64,000 nt of DNA from a virus: positions 1-64,000 of IMG/VR virus record IMGVR_UViG_3300039183_000005, one strand, 5' to 3'. Below are positions 24,560-64,000 of this stretch, one piece after another. The notes under the pieces are model-generated. The model was not told where the DNA came from, did not search any database, and was given only the letters and a program-made list of their open reading frames with translations. The translations under genes and the position numbers were made by a program. Numbering within the stretch: the stretch's first letter is position 1; each line of letters opens with the position of its first letter.

Positions 24560-25585
24560 ATGAAGCGTAATATTGTAAAACCAACTCCAGAGCAAATTGA
24601 ACTTTTACGGCGCACTGGTTCCACCAATCAGGCTGAATCTTTAGCCGCCATGCATTCTCTTGCTCAGGCTCTACAAGTTCCTCTGCGATCTGCACTACTC
24701 AATGGTGATATTCTTGGCGGAATCTTCACACCTGAAGTTCTAGACCCAAGCGCAACTGCTGAGTATCCACTGGATTTTTATCAGACGGCACAAGAAAACG
24801 ATTATGTTGCCTATGTAATTCCGAGTGAAGGTGCTTTGCCGCAGCGTACCATCTGTGGTGATGCAATAACCATCAGCACATATGATGTTGGTAATGCCAT
24901 TGACTGGCCAATCAAATACGCAAGAACGGCACGATGGAATATTGTTGCACGTGCCATGGAGGTATTAGAGGCTGGTTTTGTGAAGAAGATGAATACGGAT
25001 GGTTGGCGTGTTATTATCGCGGCAGGTGCAGGACGTACTGATTATGCCGGTGGGGCACCACTGGTATACGATAGTGCGGCTACTGCCGGTCAATTTACTA
25101 AGCGACTTGTTTCTCTGATGAAGACAACCATGACTCGTCTTGCTGGTGGCAATAGCACATCAACAAATCATGGTCGCCTGACTGATTTATTTATCAGTCC
25201 AGAAGCACTAGAGGATATTCGCGAATGGGATAATGATGAAGTTGACGATTTTACTCGCCGGGAAATCTTTACTGCTGGAGACGGCGGTGGTCCTATGGCA
25301 AGTATTTATGGTGTCAATCTTCATACGCTAGACGAACTAGGTGTGGGTCAGGAATTCCAGACTTATTTTGCAACACTGGGTGTCAGTATGGGTACGGGCG
25401 ATGAGGAAATCGCTATCGGCCTAGACTTGTCTCACGGTGATTCGTTCGTGATGCCAGTTAAGCAAGAATTAATGATCTACGAAGATGATGCACTATTCCG
25501 TAGACGTAGGGCTGGGTTCTGGGGAACCCAAGAGCATGGATTTGCGGCTTTAGACGGACGTAGAGTTTTGTTATCGAGCTTTTAG
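24560..25585 (+). CDS. Major capsid protein
   Basis: The 341-residue protein has the composition and layout of an HK97-fold capsid protein: a helical N-terminal arm, a central YPLDFYQTAQENDYVAY region, a long helix (ARTARWNIVARAMEVLEAGF) and a C-terminal DALFRRRRAGFWGTQEHGFA segment typical of these proteins. It has unusually regular codon use and higher GC than neighbours, as expected for high expression. A strong terminator follows at 25605. It is preceded by decoration and scaffold genes. Confidence 0.88.
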   Translation: MKRNIVKPTPEQIELLRRTGSTNQAESLAAMHSLAQALQVPLRSALLNGDILGGIFTPEVLDPSATAEYPLDFYQTAQENDYVAYVIPSEGALPQRTICGDAITISTYDVGNAIDWPIKYARTARWNIVARAMEVLEAGFVKKMNTDGWRVIIAAGAGRTDYAGGAPLVYDSAATAGQFTKRLVSLMKTTMTRLAGGNSTSTNHGRLTDLFISPEALEDIREWDNDEVDDFTRREIFTAGDGGGPMASIYGVNLHTLDELGVGQEFQTYFATLGVSMGTGDEEIAIGLDLSHGDSFVMPVKQELMIYEDDALFRRRRAGFWGTQEHGFAALDGRRVLLSSF

Positions 25586-25712: not shown

Positions 25713-26960
25713 ATGGCGAAGAAGAAAATTGATATAGATAAGGCAATTCGACTTTACCGAGACGAAAGGAAGTCAACACCCGAAATATCAAAAATAATCG
25801 GATGTGCTGTACAAACATTGATTACTCGTCTTAGAGAAGCTGGAGTCAAAATGCGATCATCGGGTGAATCACATGCAAAAATAGATTTTGATATCATACG
25901 ACACGAATATGAAGACTTAAAAATGTCTACCGAACAAATAGCAAAAAAACATAAAATGAAGTCTTCATCTATATGGCAACGTCTTACCAGAAATGGTGTT
26001 GCAACAAGAAATTATCAAGAGGCTGCTAATATTAACATTATAATTCCAACCGAAGAATGTCAGATTATTTGTGAACGTTATAAGGCGAATCAACACGAAA
26101 GTTGCGCCGATATTGCTGCGGACTACGATGTCAATAAAAGTACAATTGCAAATATTTTAAAGAAAAACGGTATTATTCCAGAACGCAGCGGTGCTCGCAT
26201 TAAATCATACAAGGGTGGTATTACCAAACTCCATACCAGAATTCGTAATTGCGAAAGAGCTAAGTTTTGGCAACGAGCGTGTATGGAAAGAGATGATTAT
26301 AAGTGTAGAGTTACTGGCGAAAATGGACAATTACAAATTCATCATTATCCGAAAAGTTTTTCAAAAGTATTTAATGAGTTTTTAGCCCAATATCCCGATT
26401 TAAATCCGATTAAAGATTGTGATAAACTTTTTCAATTATCTCAAAGCTATGAACCATTTTGGGATACTGATAATGGTATGACCGTAACAGTAGAAACGCA
26501 TAAAAAACTGCATATGCATAATGGTATCAAAGATAGCGAACTGATAGCTTTATACGACCAGGGCTGGTCGTGCCAACGTATTGCGAAACATTTTGGAAAG
26601 TCTCCATCATTTGTTCAGACCAGATTTGCGGCAATCGGGCAAACCCGCAGAAATGCTGGATTTTATAATAAATTGCGCTCTGAAATTAGTAGCGAAATCC
26701 AGGCTGGTGTTCTTGAAGCCTATGTCCGTGGTGAGACAACAAGGGAAATATGCAATAGATATGGTATAGCGACAAGCACACTGTACAAGATTTTGCGGAA
26801 TAATAATGTTGTACCTGGTAATAGAAAAAAGTCTGTAGAAAGTAAAGCCAGACAAGATAGTGATCGCGTAAAACAATTATATTCTATCGGTGTTACCGTA
26901 CTTGAACTTTCAAGGATGTATTGTGTCAGCGATACTACAATTAGAAATATTCTAAAATAA
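25713..26960 (+). CDS. Multi-HTH HNH endonuclease, homing type
   Basis: The 415-residue protein has an HNH nuclease in its middle (residues ~180-270; YKCRVTG, LQIHHYPKSF, ETHKKLHMHNG). It is flanked by about three helix-turn-helix units on each side, for example TPEISKIIGCAVQTLITRL, DIAADYDVNKSTIANIL, RIAKHFGKSPSFVQTRF and EICNRYGIATSTLYKIL. Such an array could read a long target. It has its own promoter motif and sits right after the capsid gene terminator. A shorter relative without the nuclease follows at 27118. Confidence 0.82.
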   Translation: MAKKKIDIDKAIRLYRDERKSTPEISKIIGCAVQTLITRLREAGVKMRSSGESHAKIDFDIIRHEYEDLKMSTEQIAKKHKMKSSSIWQRLTRNGVATRNYQEAANINIIIPTEECQIICERYKANQHESCADIAADYDVNKSTIANILKKNGIIPERSGARIKSYKGGITKLHTRIRNCERAKFWQRACMERDDYKCRVTGENGQLQIHHYPKSFSKVFNEFLAQYPDLNPIKDCDKLFQLSQSYEPFWDTDNGMTVTVETHKKLHMHNGIKDSELIALYDQGWSCQRIAKHFGKSPSFVQTRFAAIGQTRRNAGFYNKLRSEISSEIQAGVLEAYVRGETTREICNRYGIATSTLYKILRNNNVVPGNRKKSVESKARQDSDRVKQLYSIGVTVLELSRMYCVSDTTIRNILK

Positions 26961-27117: not shown

Positions 27118-27495
27118 ATGTTCCTATCTGATGCACAAATAACAGAATTATACTCTCTGGGGAAAAGTTGTGCCGATATAGCACATATTGGGGAATGTAG
27201 TGAAACGACAATATATAATAGACTCAAGTCTTTAGGAGTAACGATGCGAAATCGGTCGGAAGCTAATCAAATTTTTCCAGACTGTATTTTTATATTACTT
27301 TATAATTTGGGTCTTTCTGCGTCCCAAATTGGAACATTGTTGGGTTTAGATTCGTCAACAGTTATTAAACGATTACATAAACTGAACTTCCCTTTGCGGT
27401 CTGGCGCTTTAGCTCGTAATATTAGATACACAAATGATGAATTTAAGACGCACTTTATGACTCCTAAAATTTTAGACATATTGGGGGATATGTAG
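27118..27495 (+). CDS. Two-HTH DNA-binding protein related to the upstream endonuclease
   Basis: ATG 27118 follows TGGGAG. The 125 residues contain two helix-turn-helix units (SCADIAHIGECSETTIYNRL and SASQIGTLLGLDSSTVIKRL), each followed by a short linker such as GVTMRNRSEAN. These resemble the first two units of the preceding protein (GVKMRSSGESH). It has no nuclease site. It could be a regulator, or a remnant of a duplicated homing gene. It overlaps the next gene by one base. Confidence 0.65.
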   Translation: MFLSDAQITELYSLGKSCADIAHIGECSETTIYNRLKSLGVTMRNRSEANQIFPDCIFILLYNLGLSASQIGTLLGLDSSTVIKRLHKLNFPLRSGALARNIRYTNDEFKTHFMTPKILDILGDM

Positions 27496-30400
27496 TGGCA
27501 TTTTTAAAATCAGATCAAGTTATTTTTTATCATCCATTAGATAATTTTGATGAATATACTCAATCGCAGTCATGGGACGGATTGGGTAATTTTATGTCTG
27601 GATTATTGCCACATAGCTATCCGGCAGGGCTTGGAGTGGAATTAGGTGATACTTTTGTCGCATATAGCGCAGAAAGTTTTTGTAATACATCTGCCTATAG
27701 AAACGTCCCAATTAGACTTAGTAATACTAAACATATGGTTATCTATAATCAGGATGAAGGTGGATCAAAAAATTTATATGGTCAAATTATATCTTATGAG
27801 AACGATATTGTTACATCTGGAGAGCCGACCCTTTTAACTGCTGGAACATATAATACTACTTCATATCCAAATGCTTTTAATGGACACGCCTTAACGGAGG
27901 ATCAATGCTTATTAGTATATGGATTTTCTTCCCCAAATCAGCTCAGGGGTATGGTTGTAGACATAAGTGGCTTAACGATCACACCTAACAATTATTCTAT
28001 AATATACTCTAATTTCGGTCGCGAATTATCTTTGGCGGAAATGATTCCATATCAGTCTGGAGTTTCATCTGGTATTTTTATGCTTACCAGCAGAAGATTT
28101 AGTGATCAGAAATCTTATGCTACTCCAATACTGGTAAGTGGTACTACGATAGATAGTGGAAATTCTATTACTCCAAACGATGATGCTAATACTAACTATT
28201 TGGCAGTTGCATCATTTGATGCAGAAAATTTTGTGATGTTTTACAATGCATCTGGTCACGCCGACTATGTTACTCCGAATTTAGGAATTGGGATGGCCAG
28301 ACACGGAAGTTTAAGTGGTGCAACATGTTCGTGGGAAGAAGATGCTGTTGAGATTAATACCTGGTCTGTTCCAGGAACAGATAATCAATATTATGCTAGG
28401 ACAATAGCAAAACAATTATGTAGTGGACAAGCTGTTTCCATAGGACAATTTAAAACAGGAACAAGCACTCTGTCTACCAAGGGAATTTTGGCTACACTTG
28501 ACAATGGCGTTATGACAATTACACCTTCTGGCGGCATAGAATTAGCCGATCCAGGTGAAGCAGACAGAATTGCCATGGACGTTCTGGATGATAATCATTT
28601 TGTTACAGCTTTGAGAGAAAATTTGGATGAAAATTTAATTGATATAGTTACAATTACTGTTAGTGGGACATCTGGAACTAAAAGTCCACATTATTATAGT
28701 GGAGAACTTGATGCAGAATATCTTTGGCTATCAAAATTCAGTTTTAATAATTTTGCATTATACTGGAATAATCCAGAGATATCTAATGGGCGATTACAAA
28801 TTTTTGATGTTAGTGGAATTTCTAATATTTATGCATCTAATCCTGATGTATATCCAAGTGCTTCTGGATTTCCAAGATTAACTATCGCACTTTGGTGCAA
28901 TCAACCGACATCATTTACTGGTGATGTACATATCGACGCTGGTTATGCCATAAGACTAACAAGTGGAAGTATTATCTTTGGCGACAATGGTTCTGTATGG
29001 AATGATTCAGAAATTGCAGATTTCATGTCGCAAATCAATGATGGCTCAAATCATTTTATGGTGTTAGATTTTGCTAATAGTGGTTCGAATAATTGGGGTT
29101 TATCCACTTCGACTGATGGAAGTGGTTGGATTGATCATGGAATACAAAATAGTGGTACTACACAGTTATTAATTGATGATGGAAATTCTCCACGTATCGG
29201 CATTAGTGGATTAAACAATGAGGAAACTTTTATAGATGAACTTATTGTTTGGGGTGGATCAAGCGGAGACATGCCCAAATTTACAGATGAACAACTATCT
29301 AATCTATATAATCTTGCATATATTAAACACAATACTATGCCGAACTATAGTAATTACTATACATTAGATGCTGACGATGAAATAAATCTTTTTATTGGCG
29401 GTAGTAATCCCACAATACAATTATCAGGGAATATGTTCATTAATGGGTGTTCAGAGAATACTGCGATTTGTAATTTATTTTTAAATGGATATGACGATCT
29501 TGATGCATCAGGAAATTTATATATACATAGTCATGAAAATGTTAATTCTGACGTAGACTTATTTATTCGTGGCATAAGTCAAAATACTATTTCTATAAAT
29601 TTATTTGTCGATGGACATGTTAATAACTCTGGGTCTTGCGATTTATTTGTTGATGGATATTTGACAGTATCATTCTCTGGTAATCTATTTGTTGTTGGCG
29701 ATATAAATTCGAGTGGACATTGTGATTTATCTGTTTATGGTCGCAACAACGTTAATGATTATTTAAACCTATATACACATGGACACGTTGATAGTATTAA
29801 TTCATCCGATATGTTTATCGGTGGATATTTAATAGATAATGTTAGTGGTGATTTATTCACTTATGGAAAATCAAATCAAATTATTTCTGGTAGTTTATAT
29901 ATTGTTGGAGATATTGCTGAAAATTCTTCCATAGATTTGTTTGTGTATGGACAAAACAATATAGTAGAATCAGGAGACCTTTACATACATAGTTATGACT
30001 TGATGTCTGATGCAACCAGTTTATATACAGTTAGCATTGATGATAGGGCACTTTATTGGGCAGATGATGTTAATGGTAAAATTCAGAGATCATTATTGGA
30101 TGGAACGAATATAAAAGATGTTTTAATAAATTTACCATTAATACAAAGTCTTGTGATTGATAGGCAAGACAATAGCATATATTTTGGTGATTCAATAATC
30201 GATAAAATAGAGAAATGTGACCCAAATGGTGCCAACAGGGAGAATGTAGTTACTGATGGATTGGCTGGTATTCGTGGTATCGCAATTAGTCAGAGTTTAC
30301 GTAAAATATATTGGACAGACACAGAACTGAATGTACTCAAACGCTGTGATATAGATGGTTCAAATATTGAGACACTCGTGTCACTAGGTGTTAGTAGTAT

Positions 30401-32075
30401 TGTCCAAAAAATAACAATTGATGATAATGGTGGCAAAATATACTGGACGGACGAGAATTTATCAGGTCCGACAATTAAGAGGGCTAACCTAGATGGCACA
30501 AATGTTCAAACAATAATTAATACAAATATCACACAGCCGAGAGAAATTAGCGTAGATACATTAAACAGTAAAATATATTGGGTAGATGCTATAAGGGATT
30601 CTGTTGATTGTGCTGATTTGGATGGTAGTAATAGAGAAAATATTGCAACAATTAATGGACCACAATCGATAGCCATTGATACATATGATCAGAAATTATA
30701 TGTTGGAGATTTAATAGGCAAGATATATCGATTGAATACAGATGGGTCAGATAAAACAGAAATTGTTAACACAAGTGGTGTAATTAGGGCAATAGATTTT
30801 GGTATTGTTGTTCATACAGATGGTGTTCACGTCCCATCACCAAACGACTGTGATATTTTTATCTATGGATATCAACTTGATAATGATCAACATGATTTAA
30901 TTTTAATTGGTCACGAAGATGTTGACACATCTTGTGATTTATGGATAAGTGGACCAGTTGCAGTAACTACATATGATAATTTATTTATTCAAGGCAACGA
31001 ATATAGTGAAACCTCATGTGACCTACTTGTTAATGGATTCATGGATTATTCTATGTCTGGCGACTTATTTATCAATGGACATACTGAACATATTGACACG
31101 ATAGATTTAGTTATACATGGACATACCGATACAGTTTTGTCTTGTGATCTATTAATAAGCGGCAAAACTACGCAGAACGAATCGTGTGATATTTTTGTTT
31201 CTGGATTTGACGAGATAGTAACTTCCGGTGATTTGTTCGTTGGTGGTGTTACTAGCTACAATAATAATACAGACTTATTTGTGCTCGGAGATAGCGATAG
31301 TTATAATTCTGTTAATTTATATGCCTATGGATATGTAAGTACTCATGATTTATCCAACATGTTTATCGGAGGACATTCGACAGATAATGATCAGATTTAT
31401 TTATTTACTAATGGATATTCAACAATATCGTTTTCGGGCAATTTGTTTACAGCTAGCCATAGTAGTTATAATGATAATCTAAATCTATTTATACATGGAG
31501 ATAATAATAAGAATAATTTTATTAATTTGTATATATGTGGACATATTGACGTTTATGATTCGTTGAATTTATTTATCAATGGCAACTCAACAGACAATAA
31601 TCAAACAGATTTATTCATGCATGGATATTCTGGTGTGGCTGATTATTCAAATCTATTTATCCGTGGAGATGACGACCGAACTAAATCCATCGATCTTTTT
31701 ATTGAAGGTTCTACTGCGTCAACATCAACAATAGATTTTAGTCTCGAAAGACTTCTTAGAACGTCCGATCATAGTCCGCAGTTAATAGGAAATTTTACAA
31801 CCAGTCCGTCTGGTGTCAACATAGAAGTTTGGGATATAACGAATGGACAAAACCTAGCATTGGCACTAGAGTCTAGTGGGTGTTATCCTATTGGAAATAC
31901 TGGAAGATGGGGTTGGTCTACGCAGTATTTGCCGACACTATCTGGTTTTAGAGAATTATTTTATTACAGAATGACTAGTAATCTTGGTGAAATTTTCGAA
32001 GGACAGTTGATTTTGGGTGTTCCAGAGAGTACCAAGTGGTTCCACCCGAAAGATAGTGGAAATTATTTAGTTTAG
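27495..32075 (+). CDS. Giant fibre/adhesin-like structural protein with 14-residue repeats and YWTD propeller
   Basis: GTG 27495 follows GGGGGA. The 1526 residues run as follows: an N-terminal strand-rich region; a concanavalin/LamG-like domain (~450-600); 15 tandem 14-residue repeats (631-841); a six-bladed YWTD propeller (~850-1105); 21 more repeats (1120-1413); and a C-terminal module with SSGCYPIGNTGRWGWST. That module is repeated in the next gene. It is most likely an elongated surface fibre with carbohydrate- or protein-binding parts. It lies between capsid and connector genes, so a head fibre is possible. No chaperone or peptidase motif was seen. Confidence 0.82.
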   Translation: MAFLKSDQVIFYHPLDNFDEYTQSQSWDGLGNFMSGLLPHSYPAGLGVELGDTFVAYSAESFCNTSAYRNVPIRLSNTKHMVIYNQDEGGSKNLYGQIISYENDIVTSGEPTLLTAGTYNTTSYPNAFNGHALTEDQCLLVYGFSSPNQLRGMVVDISGLTITPNNYSIIYSNFGRELSLAEMIPYQSGVSSGIFMLTSRRFSDQKSYATPILVSGTTIDSGNSITPNDDANTNYLAVASFDAENFVMFYNASGHADYVTPNLGIGMARHGSLSGATCSWEEDAVEINTWSVPGTDNQYYARTIAKQLCSGQAVSIGQFKTGTSTLSTKGILATLDNGVMTITPSGGIELADPGEADRIAMDVLDDNHFVTALRENLDENLIDIVTITVSGTSGTKSPHYYSGELDAEYLWLSKFSFNNFALYWNNPEISNGRLQIFDVSGISNIYASNPDVYPSASGFPRLTIALWCNQPTSFTGDVHIDAGYAIRLTSGSIIFGDNGSVWNDSEIADFMSQINDGSNHFMVLDFANSGSNNWGLSTSTDGSGWIDHGIQNSGTTQLLIDDGNSPRIGISGLNNEETFIDELIVWGGSSGDMPKFTDEQLSNLYNLAYIKHNTMPNYSNYYTLDADDEINLFIGGSNPTIQLSGNMFINGCSENTAICNLFLNGYDDLDASGNLYIHSHENVNSDVDLFIRGISQNTISINLFVDGHVNNSGSCDLFVDGYLTVSFSGNLFVVGDINSSGHCDLSVYGRNNVNDYLNLYTHGHVDSINSSDMFIGGYLIDNVSGDLFTYGKSNQIISGSLYIVGDIAENSSIDLFVYGQNNIVESGDLYIHSYDLMSDATSLYTVSIDDRALYWADDVNGKIQRSLLDGTNIKDVLINLPLIQSLVIDRQDNSIYFGDSIIDKIEKCDPNGANRENVVTDGLAGIRGIAISQSLRKIYWTDTELNVLKRCDIDGSNIETLVSLGVSSIVQKITIDDNGGKIYWTDENLSGPTIKRANLDGTNVQTIINTNITQPREISVDTLNSKIYWVDAIRDSVDCADLDGSNRENIATINGPQSIAIDTYDQKLYVGDLIGKIYRLNTDGSDKTEIVNTSGVIRAIDFGIVVHTDGVHVPSPNDCDIFIYGYQLDNDQHDLILIGHEDVDTSCDLWISGPVAVTTYDNLFIQGNEYSETSCDLLVNGFMDYSMSGDLFINGHTEHIDTIDLVIHGHTDTVLSCDLLISGKTTQNESCDIFVSGFDEIVTSGDLFVGGVTSYNNNTDLFVLGDSDSYNSVNLYAYGYVSTHDLSNMFIGGHSTDNDQIYLFTNGYSTISFSGNLFTASHSSYNDNLNLFIHGDNNKNNFINLYICGHIDVYDSLNLFINGNSTDNNQTDLFMHGYSGVADYSNLFIRGDDDRTKSIDLFIEGSTASTSTIDFSLERLLRTSDHSPQLIGNFTTSPSGVNIEVWDITNGQNLALALESSGCYPIGNTGRWGWSTQYLPTLSGFRELFYYRMTSNLGEIFEGQLILGVPESTKWFHPKDSGNYLV
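29385..30017 (+). repeat. Tandem 42-nt/14-residue repeat, block 1 (15 copies)
   Basis: Residues 631-841 of the giant protein: one 15-residue unit then 14 units of exactly 14 residues. The consensus is [DN]-L-[FY]-[IVT]-x-G-[HYx]-x5-S-[GC], for example DLFIRGISQNTISI. At DNA level the copies are well diverged, with no indels. Confidence 0.93.
30045..30815 (+). other. Six-bladed YWTD (LDL-receptor class B-like) propeller region
   Basis: Six consecutive ~43-residue units with blade starts ALYWADD, SIYFGDS, KIYWTDT, KIYWTDE, KIYWVDA and KLYVGDL. The units have the (L/N)DG(S/T)N and GIA(I/V)D-type positions of YWTD repeats, for example RCDIDGSNIETLV. Six is the number that closes an LDL-receptor propeller. 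Confidence 0.85.
30852..31733 (+). repeat. Tandem 42-nt/14-residue repeat, block 2 (21 copies)
   Basis: Residues 1120-1413: 21 units, every one exactly 14 residues, so 882 bases equal 21 x 42 with no slip. Units include DLFINGHTEHIDTI and NLFIHGDNNKNNFI. It follows the propeller directly. Confidence 0.95.
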
Positions 32076-32087
32076 GAGGCATGTGAT

Positions 32088-32435
32088 ATGACAGTTATCG
32101 GAGCGACAATACCAGAGTATGATTTTTTTCCTAATGCAGCACCAGCTATTGTTGGGCAATTGCCATCTGGCCAAGTTGTTAATATACAGCTTTGGGAAAA
32201 TGGTTCGCCAGTCTCTATTTCTTCTAGTGGTTGTAGTGAGATTGGCAATACTGGTAGATATACCTGGTCTACTAGTGGTATTCCAACATTATCCGCGAGT
32301 AGACAACAATTTCATTGGCAAATGTCTGATGGTTCAGATACCGACGATGGTGATTTTATTTTAATTTCTCACGAAAACTATGACGGAGGTATGCCATCCT
32401 TAAATGCCAAGGATACATACATAAAAAGAATTTAG
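32088..32435 (+). CDS. Small structural protein sharing the C-terminal module of the giant fibre
   Basis: The 115-residue protein follows AGGAGG. Its core (SSGCSEIGNTGRYTWST, then IPTLSASRQQFHWQM) matches the last ~100 residues of the preceding 1526-residue protein. This suggests duplication of a binding or trimerisation knob, or an interaction module that attaches both to one partner. Function otherwise unknown. Confidence 0.65.
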   Translation: MTVIGATIPEYDFFPNAAPAIVGQLPSGQVVNIQLWENGSPVSISSSGCSEIGNTGRYTWSTSGIPTLSASRQQFHWQMSDGSDTDDGDFILISHENYDGGMPSLNAKDTYIKRI

Positions 32436-32444
32436 GGAGACGAT

Positions 32445-32990
32445 ATGGCTTGGAATACTGATCTAGTTTTGATAACCAGAGTTTTGATTAGCGACGTTGC
32501 TACACCACAAACTTATGTGGACGAATATATTGAGAGAGTATTAATTACTGCTGGAATTATGGTTGATGCCGATTTTCCGTTTAGCTATGATTATACCTAT
32601 GATATAAGCACTCTTACAATTTCTCCCGATCCAGTATTGAGCAGTGATTCTGCATTTATGGCTTTGATACCGCTCAAGGCTGCGTGTATTTTAACGCAAG
32701 GTGAATTTAAGCAGGCATTGGGCCAGGGAATCAAAGTACGAGACGGAGATAGTTCTATTGACACAAGCGTAAGCTTTCGGGGTTATCGAGATATTTTAGA
32801 AATGGGACCATGTGCCGCGTACGAGAAATTGAAATGGTCACTATTGGCATCTGGGGAAGCTGTGGGCGACGGTGTTGGAAAAGCCGTTCTTGGACCATAT
32901 CGGTCACCAGGCAGCAATGCACTAGATACTATTTCGTGGTATTATGATCAATTTGCTATCGAAAGCAATGGCCGCAGAGATCGTATGTAA
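32445..32990 (+). CDS. Head-tail connector-like protein (181 aa)
   Basis: Follows GGGAGACGAT. The helical start (VLITRVLISDV...YVDEYIERVLITAG) and a central ALIPLKAACILTQGEFKQA resemble head-tail adaptor proteins of the gp6/gp15 type. It opens the connector/neck gene set. Assignment rests on position and general pattern. Confidence 0.6.
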   Translation: MAWNTDLVLITRVLISDVATPQTYVDEYIERVLITAGIMVDADFPFSYDYTYDISTLTISPDPVLSSDSAFMALIPLKAACILTQGEFKQALGQGIKVRDGDSSIDTSVSFRGYRDILEMGPCAAYEKLKWSLLASGEAVGDGVGKAVLGPYRSPGSNALDTISWYYDQFAIESNGRRDRM

Positions 32991-33019
32991 TAATTTTTAG
33001 TTAATATTTGGAAGTTATT

Positions 33020-33610
33020 ATGACATATGCCAATAATAATATTAGTTTTTTTATCAACGGGTTGGAGCCCCGTCCTACTCTTTCGTGTCCTGCGCTCGAC
33101 ACAACAGCATCTATACAAATCAAGGATTCATTGATTAGAATCTATCAATCCAGAATTGATGCTCTAATTAATCAGCTTGGAAAAAATGTTTACCTAGAAT
33201 TTGATCCAATTCGTGATCCTTGTCCTAACTGTTCCTATGATGTTATTCGTGAACGATCAACCGGAATATATAAAATTGGTGGTCCAACACCATTTGCTCG
33301 TGGACGTAAATGTCCATATTGTAAAGGCCATGGTTTTACAGAAACATCAGTTAATAAATGTATTAAATGTTTGATTAAATGGAACCCCAACGATACTAGC
33401 AACTACGGACTAGCAATCGAACAAAGAAAAGGCGTAGTGCGACTTAAAACATATTTGACAGAGGCAGATGACTTAGCAAGAGCAAAGACTGTTATTGTTA
33501 ATCACGATATTGTCAATCAGATGAAATTGAGGGTGAAACTTATTCAAGGTCCAATTCCAGTTGGATTACGTGAAGATAGATATTGTATTAGTTTTTGGGA
33601 GTTGATATAA
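33020..33610 (+). CDS. Zinc-ribbon virion/neck protein (196 aa)
   Basis: ATG 33020 follows TTGGAAG. Two DnaJ-like zinc pairs, CPNC...CPYCKGHG and CIKC, lie in the middle (~residues 70-120). The C-terminal half is strand-rich (RLKTYLTEADDLARAKTVIV). Proteins of this type are found among connector genes of large phages. Probably a neck or stopper component; not proven. Confidence 0.55.
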   Translation: MTYANNNISFFINGLEPRPTLSCPALDTTASIQIKDSLIRIYQSRIDALINQLGKNVYLEFDPIRDPCPNCSYDVIRERSTGIYKIGGPTPFARGRKCPYCKGHGFTETSVNKCIKCLIKWNPNDTSNYGLAIEQRKGVVRLKTYLTEADDLARAKTVIVNHDIVNQMKLRVKLIQGPIPVGLREDRYCISFWELI

Positions 33611-34312
33611 TTGGCCAATATTAGATTAAAAATTGAACCAACATCGCAAACTATTATTCAGCTTTCCAAAGGAGTGAAACGAGAAGGTTCAAAAATATGG
33701 GCTGGACGTATATTGTCTCACGCAACTGCAATCAGACAAGATATTGGCAATATGCTTGCAAAAACTTTTAATGGAACATCTGTAGCTAAAGCTATTCGCG
33801 GCCAAGGTGGAGAAGATTTGCCAGCACATTTTGGATTAAACGACAGTACAGCTAATGCTTTGGTTGACGGAATGGCGGAATTGATTCGATCATCAGTGAG
33901 ACTTGTTAGCAAAAGTGCTAACGATAATACTGTATTGGTTCGCGTACAGGCGGTAGAAGATAATTGGAATGATTACTTAAGTCTGCCAGGCGCACAATAT
34001 ATATCTTATCCATCGAATATTACAATTCCAGTTGTTAAATGGCTATTAGTGGACCCTAGTATCGATATTGGTCAAGCTGCATACGATATAGTCTTCAAGG
34101 GGGAAGATCAGAAATTCGATGTAAGAATACAAAATGCATCTCGCAGTGGACGAGCAATCATGGTATCTCTACAGACATTGGGTGGTGGAGGAGGCTATGT
34201 ATTGCCAGCTATTGTGTCTGGACAGGCTGGTAAAAATTTCATTGAAATGACTTTAGGCCAACAGAATGTGGCGATGGAAGCCGCAACTATTTTAATGAAG
34301 AAGGTTGGATAA
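33611..34312 (+). CDS. Tail-completion/neck-like protein (233 aa)
   Basis: Starts with TTG directly after the previous stop; GGGAG nine bases upstream supports it. The N-terminal half is helical (IWAGRILSHATAIRQDIGNML) and the C-terminal part Gly-rich with short strands, as in HK97 gp10-like completion proteins. The stop overlaps the start region of the endonuclease as TAATATG. Confidence 0.55.
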   Translation: MANIRLKIEPTSQTIIQLSKGVKREGSKIWAGRILSHATAIRQDIGNMLAKTFNGTSVAKAIRGQGGEDLPAHFGLNDSTANALVDGMAELIRSSVRLVSKSANDNTVLVRVQAVEDNWNDYLSLPGAQYISYPSNITIPVVKWLLVDPSIDIGQAAYDIVFKGEDQKFDVRIQNASRSGRAIMVSLQTLGGGGGYVLPAIVSGQAGKNFIEMTLGQQNVAMEAATILMKKVG

Positions 34313-36267: not shown

Positions 36268-37386
36268 ATGAGTTCTAACAATCGCATATTTTACGCCATA
36301 CAGGCATTGGGTTTTGCGGAGCACGACGTAGTATGTCCAACTGGTTCTGGTGGGTGTGGTGTTGCTGGTTCTGGAACACATCCGTCTGGATTTAGGACAG
36401 CACATGGTGTACAGAGTGTTGGCATGAATACTACATTTAATCTTGAACAAGTTTTCGAACTTGGTCAACTAGAGCTTTACGAAAATGTCGAGGGTATTCC
36501 AGACATCGAATTGACAGCCCAAAAAGTACTAGATGGTTATCCATTGCTGTATCATCTTGCTACGCCAGGTGCAACATCGGCAACGTTGGTCGGACGATCG
36601 AACGAGCGATGTTTTGCTGCTCTGAATATTTATCCGGATACTTTTGATAATGCTTCTGGAACTCCACTGCAATCAGTTGGTCTGTCGGGTATGTATGTTT
36701 CAGCACTTACCTATACTCTGAATGTAGAGGGTAGTTCAACGGAGGATGTTACGCTTGTCGGAAACAACAGAGAATGGGTGGCCAGTGGTCTTACTCACTT
36801 TGCCCCATCTGCATTTGATGGTTCTGATGAACCATTATCTTTGACTGCTTCTGGTGGTGTGGCACAAAGAGAAAACATTCTTATGGGCTCTGGATGTTCT
36901 ATGAGTGACGCTGGTGTTATTTCTGGTGCTAGCGGTAGTATTTGGCCTACGGAAATTGATGGTATTGATGCTAACGGGCACAATTTAGTTTCCGGAGGTG
37001 CTTATAGTGCCCACATTCAAACCGTTACAATTTCAACAGACCTTGGTCGCGAAGAACTATTTGAGCTTGGTCGTCGTGGTCCGTATCACCGTTTCGTATC
37101 ATTTCCAACAGAGGTGACCTGTGTAATTGATACTACATCGTCCGAAGGTGATCTGATTGATGCCCTGGCCGATCCTGTTGGCGGAAGTAACCTCACTGAT
37201 CAAAAGATTTTCATCTGGGTTGAGGAAGGTACGCGGCTCAATCTTGGTGCTAAGAACAAATTGGCATCGGTTAGCTACGGAGGGGGCGACAGCGGTGGCG
37301 GAAATGTTACAGTATCACTTAACTATTCGAATTTCAATTCCTTAAAGGTTACGCATCCACAAGACCCGGCGGGCCTTTCAACCTAA
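36268..37386 (+). CDS. Major tail tube protein
   Basis: The 372-residue protein has the centre YVSALTYTLNVEGSSTEDVT followed by LVGNNREWV, typical of tail-tube proteins of long-tailed phages, and N-terminal LEQVFELGQLELYENV. A second related stretch (HIQTVTISTDLGREELFELG) suggests an internal duplication. It has its own promoter motif and a strong terminator after it, as expected for a high-copy virion protein. Confidence 0.75.
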   Translation: MSSNNRIFYAIQALGFAEHDVVCPTGSGGCGVAGSGTHPSGFRTAHGVQSVGMNTTFNLEQVFELGQLELYENVEGIPDIELTAQKVLDGYPLLYHLATPGATSATLVGRSNERCFAALNIYPDTFDNASGTPLQSVGLSGMYVSALTYTLNVEGSSTEDVTLVGNNREWVASGLTHFAPSAFDGSDEPLSLTASGGVAQRENILMGSGCSMSDAGVISGASGSIWPTEIDGIDANGHNLVSGGAYSAHIQTVTISTDLGREELFELGRRGPYHRFVSFPTEVTCVIDTTSSEGDLIDALADPVGGSNLTDQKIFIWVEEGTRLNLGAKNKLASVSYGGGDSGGGNVTVSLNYSNFNSLKVTHPQDPAGLST

Positions 37387-59021: not shown

Positions 59022-62000
59022 ATGGCCCAATGTTATTATACAGAAAATTATCAAACTTGGAGCCCATCCGGTAAGCAAGTATGGGAAGAAAAGGACTTAT
59101 CTCCATGGCTTCCGAGTACTGGAGATATAACAGCAGAAATTGTTATATTAAATAGCAATACGATAGTGGGAGTTTTTTCCGGTGGGATAAGAGCCGCTGG
59201 TTCTTCGTTAGATAGAAAATTTAATATATACAGGGTTCCATTTTATGATGGATACAATCCATTAACATTGCACGTTCAAGTTTCTGGCGGTAAAATTGAG
59301 TGCTATGCCTCAAGTGGTATAGATTTCTGTTTGTTGGGATATTGGACTGGAACTCGATATGTAGAAAAAAATGATGATTTTGCGCCTGCATCTGGTGGTG
59401 CTTGGATCAATACAAATCTTAGTACCTTTGGTGTTCCAAGCGGTGCTATAGCAGAAATTGCTCTTGGAGATGCTAATGGTAATAATAACTTCGGCGTTCG
59501 ATCTGTCGGAAATGATAATCTTCGTTACGTTAAAATGAATGCTGGAGATACCTTGCACGGTAAATATAATTACTGGACATCCCTGGTGCAAACCAGCGGC
59601 AACAATGCGACAATTCAATATTATTCACAAACCTATACGACTGGACGAAAATTATTTGTTTGTGGTTACTGGGATACTCCACCTGGGGATTATACTGATA
59701 TATTTGATAGAGATGCAGCTAATCCAATAAATGATAGTACATGGGACGTTATCGATGTAGCTAATGTACAATCTGGATATGTAGCATCATTCGGCATCAT
59801 GACCGAAGAACCACTTCATAGTCGTGTTTTAGGTATTCGTCAATCTGGAAGCATTATTGATAGAAAAAATAATATACGTTTTTCTACTGCCACAAAAATC
59901 AATATGGTATATTGTTCGCACGTAAATGTTAATCCATACATTGAAGCTTACTCAGAAGATGCTTCTGGAAGTAATGATGATTTTACTTTATTGGGTTATT
60001 GGAACAATTTTTCATCATATTTCGAATCGATAAATGCTAGCGGCAATTTATATATATGCGGACATGATATAGCTCCTGTTTTGAGTGGCAGTAAATTATA
60101 TTACACAAATTTGGTTGAAAAGCAAATTGTCGCATATGATATTGATAATTTTGAAACAGACATTATTGTCGCAAGTGGATTAAATGCCCCATATGGAATA
60201 GTGTCTGACAGCATTAGGGATCATTTATACTGGGTTGATAAAAGTGACGGAACAGTTAATAGATGTACTACAAGTGGAGATAATATCTGTATAATTAGTT
60301 CTGGATTTTCACTTCCGTCACATATAGCTTTCGACTATTTAAATAGCAATTTATATATTGTTGGTAATAGTGATGATTATATATCTAGAATTAATATTGA
60401 TGGCTCAAATAATGTTCTTATTCTTGATAGTTCTGACGGAATTTCAGCTCCTAGTAGAATTCAATTATTGCCATATTCTGGTATAATGTTTTGGACAGAA
60501 ACAGATACCACTAATGGTAAAATCAAAAAAGCTAATTTGGATGGATCAGAAATACAAACTATAGTAAGTGGTTTATATAATCCAATAGGAATAGCGTTAG
60601 ATAAAACTAACAATAAAATTTATTGGACACACACACCAACAACTGGAGACCCATTTAATGGACAAATACAAAGATCAAATTTTGATGGATCAAACATAGA
60701 AACAATTTCTGATGGATTTGGATTTTTACTTGGTCTTGTTATAGATCAATTCTCAGAATTTGCTTATGTTAATATTTATGCCGGTGCTGAAAATGATGTA
60801 ATAGCAAAAGTTAATATGTCCGACGGAACAAAAGAATATATCATCATGGTCGATGGCCATATCAACGGAATGGCTATTTACAATCCGTCTCCAGGAATTA
60901 AAACATTTACACATGGACATGACACCATATTATCTTCTAGTGATTTATTCATATCAGGAAAAGATGATAACTTAAATAATTGCAATCTTTTTATACCTGG
61001 ACACGATATAGTATCAATTTCCAGTGATTTATTTATTGATGGCGAATGTCCATGTAATGATAGTTGCGACCTATTTACATCCGCCATGCATATATGTTCA
61101 AATAATTTGAACCTTTTTGTAAAAACTTGGAATTTTGATGGAAATTGTCACTACACCGAAGATATTCATAGTTGGCATATTGAAAATAGTGGGTCGTGGG
61201 AAGTCCATGATTTAAATTCTCATATTGTTGTGCCATCTGGAGATACTCCCAGCATAGTAGCAGAAATTTTGATTTCTAATATTGGTGATATTCCATGGTC
61301 TGGTGGTGTCCGTACATTAAATTCTTCGCTAGACAGAAAAATAGGTATTTTTCAACAGGATAATATTGAATGGTCTGGTGCCAATTATGGTGCTACGATG
61401 CACGTACAACTTTCTAATGATCATAAGTTAGAATGTTACGCGCAAAACTGTGATGATATTAAATTTATTTTATTAGGATATTGGGTTGGTCCAGAATATG
61501 TCGAATTAGCCGAAAGATTCAATTTTGTTGGTGCTGCTGATTGGGCGCAAAAATCACTAGATACCTATGGAGTTGCTAGTGGTGCTATAGCCGAATTAGT
61601 TGCTGGATGTTATTATTCCTCTGAATATCGCATGGGTGCTAGACAAATAGGTTCTGATATAGACCGATTCATATATGCTGGCCGTGGACAATGGACTGGA
61701 TTGCCAGGAAGTTCACGAGGTTATTGGTCAACGTTCGTTAATACAAGCGGCAATAATGCTGTTATAGAGATCAAATCTGATTTTCCGACTTTAGTTACCG
61801 GCGGTATATATTGGATGGAAAATTTCGTTGCTGGATATTGGTCTAATCCACCTGGTGAATATACTGAACAATATACTATTGATGATGCATCTATAGGAAT
61901 AGATAGTACTTGGACAAATGTTAGTGGAACAGCACCATCAGATTCCGTAGCACAATATTATGTATCTAACAAAAAATTAACAAAACAAACACTTGGTATC

Positions 62001-64000
62001 AGATCATTAGCCAATGAGCTTGATCGTAAATTTAGTCTTCCAAGATCACCAACTAGTAAAACATCAAATTTTAGTTCGCATGTCAATGTATCGTCAGACG
62101 TAAAAGTATATGCTCAATATGGTGCCGACAATAATGAAAATATAAATTTATTAGGTTATTGGAATAATTTTAATTCATGGACACCTCTGACTTCAGATAG
62201 TATATCACTTTTTATGTCTGGGATTCCAGCTTTTATAAATACTAGTGGCGACAAAGGCGGGTTATATCCATCTGGTGTTTCATTATATATCTATGGTATT
62301 CAATCTGATAATATTGATTTGTTTACCAACGGTGCTGATAGCAGTGATGCTTCTGGAAGTTTGTTTATACATGGAATATTTAATTATGCTACTAGCCAAG
62401 AATATTCTTTGTCTTATCCATCTGGTCTTCAATGTTATACTGTCGGTAGTGGCATAATTTCAGAAAGTGGTCAATTTCCACTTGTTATTGACGGATTTAA
62501 TATACCTGAAGTATCCGGTGATCTTTTCATTAACGGTTATGATCTCTCTTCTGTGTCTGGCGATTTATTCATAAAAGCTCCTGAGCCAGCAGCATCTTCA
62601 TTAAGTCTTTTCATCTATAATCCAGTTGATCTAGGACCAGGTTTAATTAGAGAAGCTGATGCTGTATTTTATTTGAGATATTATCATGATGGCCCAGATT
62701 CAGCAGGTGATATACAGGAATTTGTAAATAACCAAACATGGTATATTCCAGAAACCTTATTTCAACACAGTCCGTTTATTGGCGTATCCGGTAAAGTGGT
62801 TGAAAATGTTGGATCATCAGAAATAATTGAACCATTTGCTCCGACTTTCGGAGATGGCACTTATCCGCAATTTAATGATCTTGGCGGACCTAATTATCGT
62901 GAAGCACTAGACACTGACTACCGCACCCCTGGAGGTGGATGGCAGTCCACTAAACTTGGTTATTCTGAAAGCACCAAATATCAACAAAATACTTGTGGCC
63001 CAATTGATGATTATCAATATCCCGGTTCTAGTAGTTTTACTACAGTTTTTTGGATGTCCGGTGCTCATACATCGGGGAATGTTGCTGAAGTAGGTTGGTT
63101 CAGAAAAGATAATGTTGAAGATTTAGATATTGCCCTAGCAGTTCACACTGTTGGTATTCGTATTGAAAGTGAAAGTGGTCTCACTGTCATAACTAATATG
63201 CGTGATGTGCCATATGAACAACCCAGCGGAGGTGGTTTATGGTGGGGCGGTACCACTCACTACGGAACTCCAACTGGAACAGACTGGACATGGCGCAGTG
63301 CAAATGAATACTGGACGTGGACAGAAGAATGGCCAACTGTACATATAGAACATAATCCAATTACTTTTGTAGCCTTACATGCGGATTTTATAGCTAGTGG
63401 TGTCGATGGTGGTCATCCCAATCACATGAAGGTATATCTGAGTCTGGATGGTCAACCATGGACGTATATTGGTTCTGGATTAACCGGTCCACCAGCAAGC
63501 TCTCTATATAGCTACAGTGATCCAAGAAATAGAAAAGCTGAAAATTGTGTTGGCGTTAGACAGCAAGGTATTAATGTCAGTGGCGGAATTATTCCTGCGG
63601 AGATTGGTGGCGTTAAACAGGGTAGTATTATTCTGTCAGAAAATGTTCTGTGGACTGATGCAGATAAATTTACCAACGGTGAATTAAGTGCTTTATACAG
63701 TGTTGTTGATCAATATTATCGGCCACTTAATGAGTATAGACCTACTATCGTTCCGCCGTCAACATATATTAAAAGAACGTTCAGTGATTTTATATATAGT
63801 CCAGCAGATATCAGTGTTGGATATAATCCAGGAGAAATTTGTTCTGGCATATTGGTAACGATTGAAGTTGGCCTTGGAGCCTACGGAGATGCTGCATCAG
63901 CTTATCTTATTGAAGAAAATATCCCATCTGGCGTATATGTCCGTAATATTAGTCGTTCTAGTGGTACATCTGCATATTACAATCAGGGATCGCGTCCTGC
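59022..64000 (+). CDS. Giant tail/fibre protein, open at the right edge (at least 1659 aa)
   Basis: ATG 59022 follows AAAGGT; no stop occurs before the window ends. Three ~90-residue modules each end in LLGYW or a similar GYW motif (59088-60040), followed by a six-bladed YWTD-like propeller (60085-60880). Five 14-residue repeats come next (60900-61109), then a second copy of the three modules (61230-62195), more 14-residue units, and a LamG/concanavalin-like region (~62640-63720). It shares all these parts with the protein at 27495. Coming right after the tape measure, it is likely a distal tail or side-fibre protein that binds the host. Confidence 0.82.
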   Translation, partial: MAQCYYTENYQTWSPSGKQVWEEKDLSPWLPSTGDITAEIVILNSNTIVGVFSGGIRAAGSSLDRKFNIYRVPFYDGYNPLTLHVQVSGGKIECYASSGIDFCLLGYWTGTRYVEKNDDFAPASGGAWINTNLSTFGVPSGAIAEIALGDANGNNNFGVRSVGNDNLRYVKMNAGDTLHGKYNYWTSLVQTSGNNATIQYYSQTYTTGRKLFVCGYWDTPPGDYTDIFDRDAANPINDSTWDVIDVANVQSGYVASFGIMTEEPLHSRVLGIRQSGSIIDRKNNIRFSTATKINMVYCSHVNVNPYIEAYSEDASGSNDDFTLLGYWNNFSSYFESINASGNLYICGHDIAPVLSGSKLYYTNLVEKQIVAYDIDNFETDIIVASGLNAPYGIVSDSIRDHLYWVDKSDGTVNRCTTSGDNICIISSGFSLPSHIAFDYLNSNLYIVGNSDDYISRINIDGSNNVLILDSSDGISAPSRIQLLPYSGIMFWTETDTTNGKIKKANLDGSEIQTIVSGLYNPIGIALDKTNNKIYWTHTPTTGDPFNGQIQRSNFDGSNIETISDGFGFLLGLVIDQFSEFAYVNIYAGAENDVIAKVNMSDGTKEYIIMVDGHINGMAIYNPSPGIKTFTHGHDTILSSSDLFISGKDDNLNNCNLFIPGHDIVSISSDLFIDGECPCNDSCDLFTSAMHICSNNLNLFVKTWNFDGNCHYTEDIHSWHIENSGSWEVHDLNSHIVVPSGDTPSIVAEILISNIGDIPWSGGVRTLNSSLDRKIGIFQQDNIEWSGANYGATMHVQLSNDHKLECYAQNCDDIKFILLGYWVGPEYVELAERFNFVGAADWAQKSLDTYGVASGAIAELVAGCYYSSEYRMGARQIGSDIDRFIYAGRGQWTGLPGSSRGYWSTFVNTSGNNAVIEIKSDFPTLVTGGIYWMENFVAGYWSNPPGEYTEQYTIDDASIGIDSTWTNVSGTAPSDSVAQYYVSNKKLTKQTLGIRSLANELDRKFSLPRSPTSKTSNFSSHVNVSSDVKVYAQYGADNNENINLLGYWNNFNSWTPLTSDSISLFMSGIPAFINTSGDKGGLYPSGVSLYIYGIQSDNIDLFTNGADSSDASGSLFIHGIFNYATSQEYSLSYPSGLQCYTVGSGIISESGQFPLVIDGFNIPEVSGDLFINGYDLSSVSGDLFIKAPEPAASSLSLFIYNPVDLGPGLIREADAVFYLRYYHDGPDSAGDIQEFVNNQTWYIPETLFQHSPFIGVSGKVVENVGSSEIIEPFAPTFGDGTYPQFNDLGGPNYREALDTDYRTPGGGWQSTKLGYSESTKYQQNTCGPIDDYQYPGSSSFTTVFWMSGAHTSGNVAEVGWFRKDNVEDLDIALAVHTVGIRIESESGLTVITNMRDVPYEQPSGGGLWWGGTTHYGTPTGTDWTWRSANEYWTWTEEWPTVHIEHNPITFVALHADFIASGVDGGHPNHMKVYLSLDGQPWTYIGSGLTGPPASSLYSYSDPRNRKAENCVGVRQQGINVSGGIIPAEIGGVKQGSIILSENVLWTDADKFTNGELSALYSVVDQYYRPLNEYRPTIVPPSTYIKRTFSDFIYSPADISVGYNPGEICSGILVTIEVGLGAYGDAASAYLIEENIPSGVYVRNISRSSGTSAYYNQGSRP
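60085..60880 (+). other. Second YWTD-like propeller region
   Basis: Six blade starts are recognisable: KLYYTN, HLYWVD, NLYIVG, IMFWTE, KIYWTH and FAYVNI, with linking KKANLDGSEIQTIV and QRSNFDGSNIETIS segments. Two blades are weak, so it is more diverged than the copy at 30045. Confidence 0.75.
60900..61109 (+). repeat. Tandem 14-residue repeat, five copies in the second giant protein
   Basis: Five units of exactly 14 residues (for example DLFISGKDDNLNNC, NLFIPGHDIVSISS) directly after the propeller, the same order as in the protein at 27495. Further copies lie near 62310-62390 and 62517-62600. Confidence 0.88.

Follow-up and report, generated by a model that had tools for sequence, protein, structure and literature searches.

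A so far undescribed 14-residue repeat flanks a YWTD propeller in a putative fibre protein of uncultured tailed phages

The array protein and its gene neighbourhood

The stretch of DNA analysed here, referred to as the window, comprises the first 64 kb of the 168,332-bp record of an uncultured virus (IMGVR_UViG_3300039183_000005). A putative major capsid protein is encoded at 24560-25585 (plus strand), after portal and protease-like genes; its match to phrog_3922 is weak (E=0.027), and it defines the phage clade treated below. After the capsid gene lies an HNH/homing-type endonuclease-like gene (25713-26960), and similar genes are found in the same place in many relatives. Further downstream, an open reading frame (27495-32075, plus strand, as are all its parts) encodes a protein of 1526 aa, here called the array protein. 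It starts with a region of about 630 aa (27495-29384) that, by the look of its motifs, may be lectin-like (LamG/ConA-type) with an inserted beta-rich region; neither Pfam nor the PDB gave a match above the cut-off for this region itself, which is partly homologous, at 23-41%, to other array proteins (in L016, L018, L026, L034-L037 and L040). A first block of 14-residue repeats follows (29385-30017, aa 631-841), then a YWTD (LDL-receptor class B) beta-propeller (30018-30851), a second block of repeats (30852-31733, aa 1120-1413), and finally an Ig-like beta-sandwich of 113 aa (31734-32075, aa 1414-1526 and the stop codon), which is a candidate docking domain.

The propeller, which the first-pass annotation of the window had placed between the two repeat blocks, is genuine, as it matches PF00058 with E=1.4e-22 and 80.3 bits against a gathering cut-off of 21, and as the propellers of LRP2, LRP4 and LRP6 in the PDB match the array protein over about aa 860-1096; nidogen propellers are among the PDB matches as well. 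No ligand-binding site was identified in the array protein. The C-terminal domain was modelled by AlphaFold2 with a pLDDT of 81-97 over most of its length and of about 62-69 at the very end, and Foldseek assigned it with a probability of 1.00 to Ig-like folds in the PDB and to phage tail-fibre, minor tail and BppU-domain proteins. Copies that are about 40-60% identical end the array proteins of relatives.

Directly downstream, a stand-alone paralogue of this domain with 115 aa is encoded (32088-32435, plus strand), recognised because its relatives resemble the C-terminal domain in BLAST comparisons; it is kept across the clade, with identities mostly of 45-73% among relatives. The next gene (32445-32990, plus strand) served as synteny anchor and encodes a protein with 50-82% identity in relatives, which is termed connector-like from its position only. 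It is followed by the gene of a conserved Cys-rich (CxxC) protein of the capsid-tail interval (33008-33610, plus strand), for which no family match establishing a function was found and which in relatives can be the C-terminal fusion partner of arrays. The N-terminus of the window copy begins with ..NNISFFINGLEPRP, and one leftover unit-like stretch, ISFFINGLEPRP, is present at its start; free-standing Cys-rich proteins in relatives often retain such a single N-terminal stretch. Motif units also occur, at irregular and loose spacing, in a second repeat-bearing protein of 2216 aa with YWTD repeats, which is encoded directly after the tape measure gene (59022-64000, plus strand, continuing beyond the window to C1:65672).

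A repeat with a conserved core and a constant register

The first-pass annotation had described 15 plus 21 copies of a strict 14-residue motif that run without any indel. A weight matrix, built from the same 36 units that it then scores, found 36 units in the array protein where 1.2 are expected in the shuffled protein, and together with residue counts it confirmed 15 units in block 1 and 21 in block 2, which are matched by the repeat profile with E=4e-44 and E=7.5e-50, respectively. Block 2 indeed consists of exactly 21 x 42 nt (882 nt), and its residue identity at lag 14 amounts to 83 matches, compared with 21.3 +/- 4.4 (maximum 38) in 5000 shuffles. The regularity without indel holds for this block, but in block 1 a single extra residue is inserted between units 1 and 2 (NLFIGGSNPTIQLS-G-NMFING). 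Likewise, the motif is strict in its core, [DN]-L-[FY]-[IV]-x-G, to which strong conservation in the window units is limited: position 1 is D or N in 34 of the 36 units, position 2 is L, M or I in all 36, position 3 is F or Y in 30, position 4 is I or V in 28, and position 6 is G in 33. The remaining motif positions are loose, with H or Y at position 7 in 17/36, S at position 13 in 19/36, and G or C at position 14 in 15/36.

That the register is conserved and the DNA is not, as had also been claimed, was borne out. Pairwise identity among the window units averages 47% at the DNA level and 28.5% at the protein level, Tandem Repeats Finder gave no match within the gene, and the conserved G and L are written with several different codons. 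About 940 distinct units from many contigs yield the consensus D-L-F-I-x-G-[HYK]-[DE]-[TS]-x-S-[NG]-[SN]-[IL], and 91% of 908 neighbouring unit spacings (considering spacings of up to 20 residues) are exactly 14 residues. Unit-to-unit similarity is flat along the arrays, with neighbours about as similar as units that are eight apart, and this lack of decay over distance argues against a recent origin of the arrays by tandem duplication and for selection on the unit. Selection on a structural period is thus well supported by the large number of units, their spacing, the lack of decay and the lack of DNA repeats. In the array at L043:13136-15202, 14-residue variants such as TLTLTYPSFHIIPL occur at intervals, and there the register is kept without the DLFIxG core.

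Searches in Pfam, PHROGs and NCBIfam gave no credible match to the arrays, and the scattered Pfam and NCBIfam matches on them, with no stretch passing alone, were treated as chance; nor was there a match of a 12-unit profile to PDB sequences. In an annotated phage collection, neither the array protein nor the capsid protein matched any record, and the same was true of a relative's array of 700 aa; a literature search for 14-residue phage tail-fibre repeats, phage YWTD propellers and RCC1 propellers of phage tails returned nothing on point. The failure of the first reading to recognise a named family is in line with this, and a match to a described family, which it had regarded as evidence against its claim, did not clearly emerge from the profile searches. 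As judged by these comparisons, the 14-mer is a repeat family not described so far, within a structure of known type.

Possible fold of the repeat

AlphaFold2 modelled 12 units, on the basis of 66 aligned arrays, as alternating strands of about 6 and 4 residues per 14 residues, with a mean pLDDT of 57. Foldseek found mostly beta-solenoids as the nearest PDB folds of this model, none of them significant (best E=0.29, probability 0.16), and a coupling analysis of neighbouring units gave no clear signal for in-register stacking. In a second AlphaFold job the alignment properly covered 4 of 8 units, and the repeat part of that model was not used. A beta-solenoid-like rod, as first proposed, is compatible with these results, but one strand or half-turn per repeat is not what the model gives, as it has two strands per 14 residues. 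The 14-mer may have a beta-solenoid or beta-roll fold; assuming that each unit forms one solenoid turn with a rise of about 4.8 A, the lengths of the two arrays would come to about 7 and 10 nm.

Predicted disorder had been named as an outcome that would speak against a rod, and it was not clearly seen: the confidence is low, yet the modelled beta structure is regular. The low confidence in both jobs and the polar, acidic composition of the arrays would fit a flexible low-complexity linker that has no defined fold and keeps its period solely through duplication of units. Such a linker is very unlikely, as the hydrophobic core L-F-I plus G is kept with exact spacing in widely divergent units, as similarity does not decay with the distance between units, and as only 2 of the 506 array residues are prolines.

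A more specific possibility is that the 14-mer belongs to, or closely matches in structure, the 14-residue left-handed parallel beta-roll of YadA-type trimeric adhesin heads and peptidase-G2 type phage appendages, and that it thus forms a trimeric beta-roll fibre. Published beta-rolls consist of 14-residue layers (PMC9543794), so the period is common to both, two strands are predicted per repeat, and SG-rich arrays of the relative L053 match a YadA-like protein (tblastn E=7e-13) and a peptidase-G2 protein (E=1e-3). This tblastn match, however, joins low-complexity periodic sequences. YadA_head (PF05658) had no match in the phage's own genome at E<=10 and was absent from the Pfam scans, and a comparison with a peptidase-G2 14-mer profile did not stand out from column-shuffled controls (fraction 0.55 with one score, 0.11 with another). 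Moreover, BpaC-like rolls are defined by two conserved glycines that are 7 residues apart, G@1 and G@8 (PMC9543794), whereas the 14-mer has one near-invariant G at position 6 and mostly S, N or D at position 13. A beta-roll fibre of this kind is somewhat unlikely. The YadA-like protein matched by the L053 arrays is a family member from Burkholderia ubonensis (plasmid NZ_CP013369, H2), with 29% identity over 300 aa, which may be a periodic low-complexity similarity.

Occurrence in one phage clade

A search with the capsid protein identified 33 IMG/VR contigs at 64-89% identity, and 14-mer units are found downstream of the capsid gene in most of those that extend far enough. All ten large relatives tested have matches to the 14-mer profile, usually in two regions that are tens of kilobases apart, and in the window's own record, too, one repeat region follows the capsid gene and the other adjoins the tape measure gene. 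The whole array protein as a single query found nothing among viral contigs. A search for 14-mer arrays with a two-unit DNA pattern detected 34 stretches of viral contigs, and those records with regular arrays that were checked could be placed in the same clade through their capsid, their portal or a further conserved protein. An exception among the pattern matches is a protein with irregular NLFVxG-type units (L049:4432-6285) on a 56-kb record that has no match to the portal or to the conserved protein encoded at 36268-37386, and a looser form of the motif may thus exist outside the clade.

Among 84,980 bacterial and archaeal genomes, the same pattern gave 21 matches, and real arrays are present only at two loci on CP070695 (L081 and L082) and one on QIFK01000183; both genomes hold the capsid gene of this clade. 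At the remaining matches the weight matrix shows nothing comparable; four of them were read and are out-of-frame short repeats or unrelated sequence. CP070695 is labelled as a Heimdallarchaeota chromosome, but deriving a host from this record was rejected, as it consists of contigs with 100-N gaps between them, of which the phage occupies a separate piece (47485-93855), and as an equally close relative is found in a Nitrosospira MAG. The phage piece in CP070695 is co-binning only and no evidence of a host. On the Nitrosospira MAG contig (L098), the array protein has an RCC1 propeller between arrays. The capsid protein in that genome bin is 85% identical, which conflicts with the archaeal bin as a hint to the host. 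By its sequence distribution, the 14-mer is a hallmark of one uncultured clade of tailed phages with 140-180 kb; it recurs across the group, and no place outside it that allowed a firm check had the repeat.

Exchanged cargo and constant C-termini

The domains carried by the arrays are swapped, and the C-terminal modules are constant. The cargo among 43 array proteins comprises YWTD repeats in 11 cases, RCC1 propellers in five and LamG in one. The array proteins encoded from the capsid gene to the tail-side gene that are complete or have an identified C-terminus, 22 in number, all end in one of two ways, either with the Ig-like domain (15 proteins) or with an in-frame fusion to the Cys-rich protein (seven proteins, in L018, L027 with two, L029, L032, L035 and L040); this count covers proteins with at least two units between the capsid gene and the homologue of 33611-34312, and six more run off the end of the locus. 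Identity in relatives is 64-89% for the capsid protein, 50-82% for the connector-like protein and 52-78% for the Cys-rich protein, whereas the N-terminal and propeller modules have 21-41% or are absent. Such divergent modules among conserved flanking genes are the pattern expected of host-recognition proteins. A reverse transcriptase of a diversity-generating retroelement was searched for, and none was found.

A proposed modular virion fibre

It is reasonably likely that the array protein is a modular, C-terminally anchored virion fibre (adhesin), in which the 14-mer arrays serve as spacer stalks for exchangeable binding domains. The Ig-like domain would attach the fibre to the virion, with the head-tail junction as the most likely site, and in other clade members the fused Cys-rich protein of the capsid-tail interval would be the docking part. 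The two arrays would be stalks that keep the YWTD propeller and the N-terminal domain off the particle, and these would bind a ligand on the host surface, probably a glycan or a surface protein. The 14-mer would thereby act as a length-adjustable connector that accepts different propellers or lectin-like domains, with purifying selection preserving the period and the core residues and with exposed positions free to drift.

Gene order and fusion partners point to the neck as the site of attachment. The array gene lies shortly after the capsid gene, and phage heads can bear Ig-like domains, which would agree with capsid head fibres or decoration proteins instead of neck or tail appendages. A position on the head is nonetheless unlikely, as seven proteins of relatives have their arrays fused to the Cys-rich protein from the connector interval, and as the second array protein is encoded next to the tape measure gene. 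A neck fibre can be extended, as a tentative possibility, to a clade-specific new class of 14-residue beta-solenoid that would be a universal virion socket: propellers and lectin-like domains would be swapped between arrays, attachment would take place by the Ig-like domain or by fusion to a neck protein, and receptor binding would become a plug-in function at neck and tail.

The repeat thus probably builds exchangeable host-binding fibres, and these may attach between head and tail and not at the tail tip alone. The locus points to a hypervariable, probably receptor-binding region in a little-known clade of uncultured phages, and animal-like YWTD propellers on phage fibres add further interest. 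As an uncatalogued family with hundreds of natural units, the repeat also is a data set for a new beta-structural repeat.

Comparison with known systems

Among known 14-residue structures, the YadA-type beta-roll comes closest, and the 14-mer falls outside it by profile and glycine pattern. YadA-type heads with their left-handed beta-roll (PF05658; BpaC, PMC9543794) and the peptidase-G2 appendages are like the 14-mer in period, in the strand-turn-strand arrangement of the low-confidence model and as stalk or head of a surface fibre, but the core is DLFIxG in the 14-mer and SHAEG in the peptidase-G2 protein, with one conserved glycine instead of two and no profile match. The 14-mer may nevertheless work like a YadA-type beta-roll.

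In case of the LDL-receptor YWTD beta-propeller (PF00058), the sequence homology with aa ~860-1096 is clear, but here the propeller is located between the repeat arrays of a phage protein, and no other LDL-receptor modules were matched. The BppU and Ig-like domains of phage baseplate and tail-fibre proteins resemble the C-terminal domain in fold, according to Foldseek, and in their terminal position on a fibre-like protein; the domain of the array protein differs in having no sequence family match, in being C-terminal and in being encoded near the capsid gene. Finally, the neck appendages of phi29, head fibres and the whiskers of T4 are neck or collar fibres. Their repeats and domains are different from those of the array protein and no sequence relation has been shown, but they resemble it in the proposed location and in their elongated modular form.
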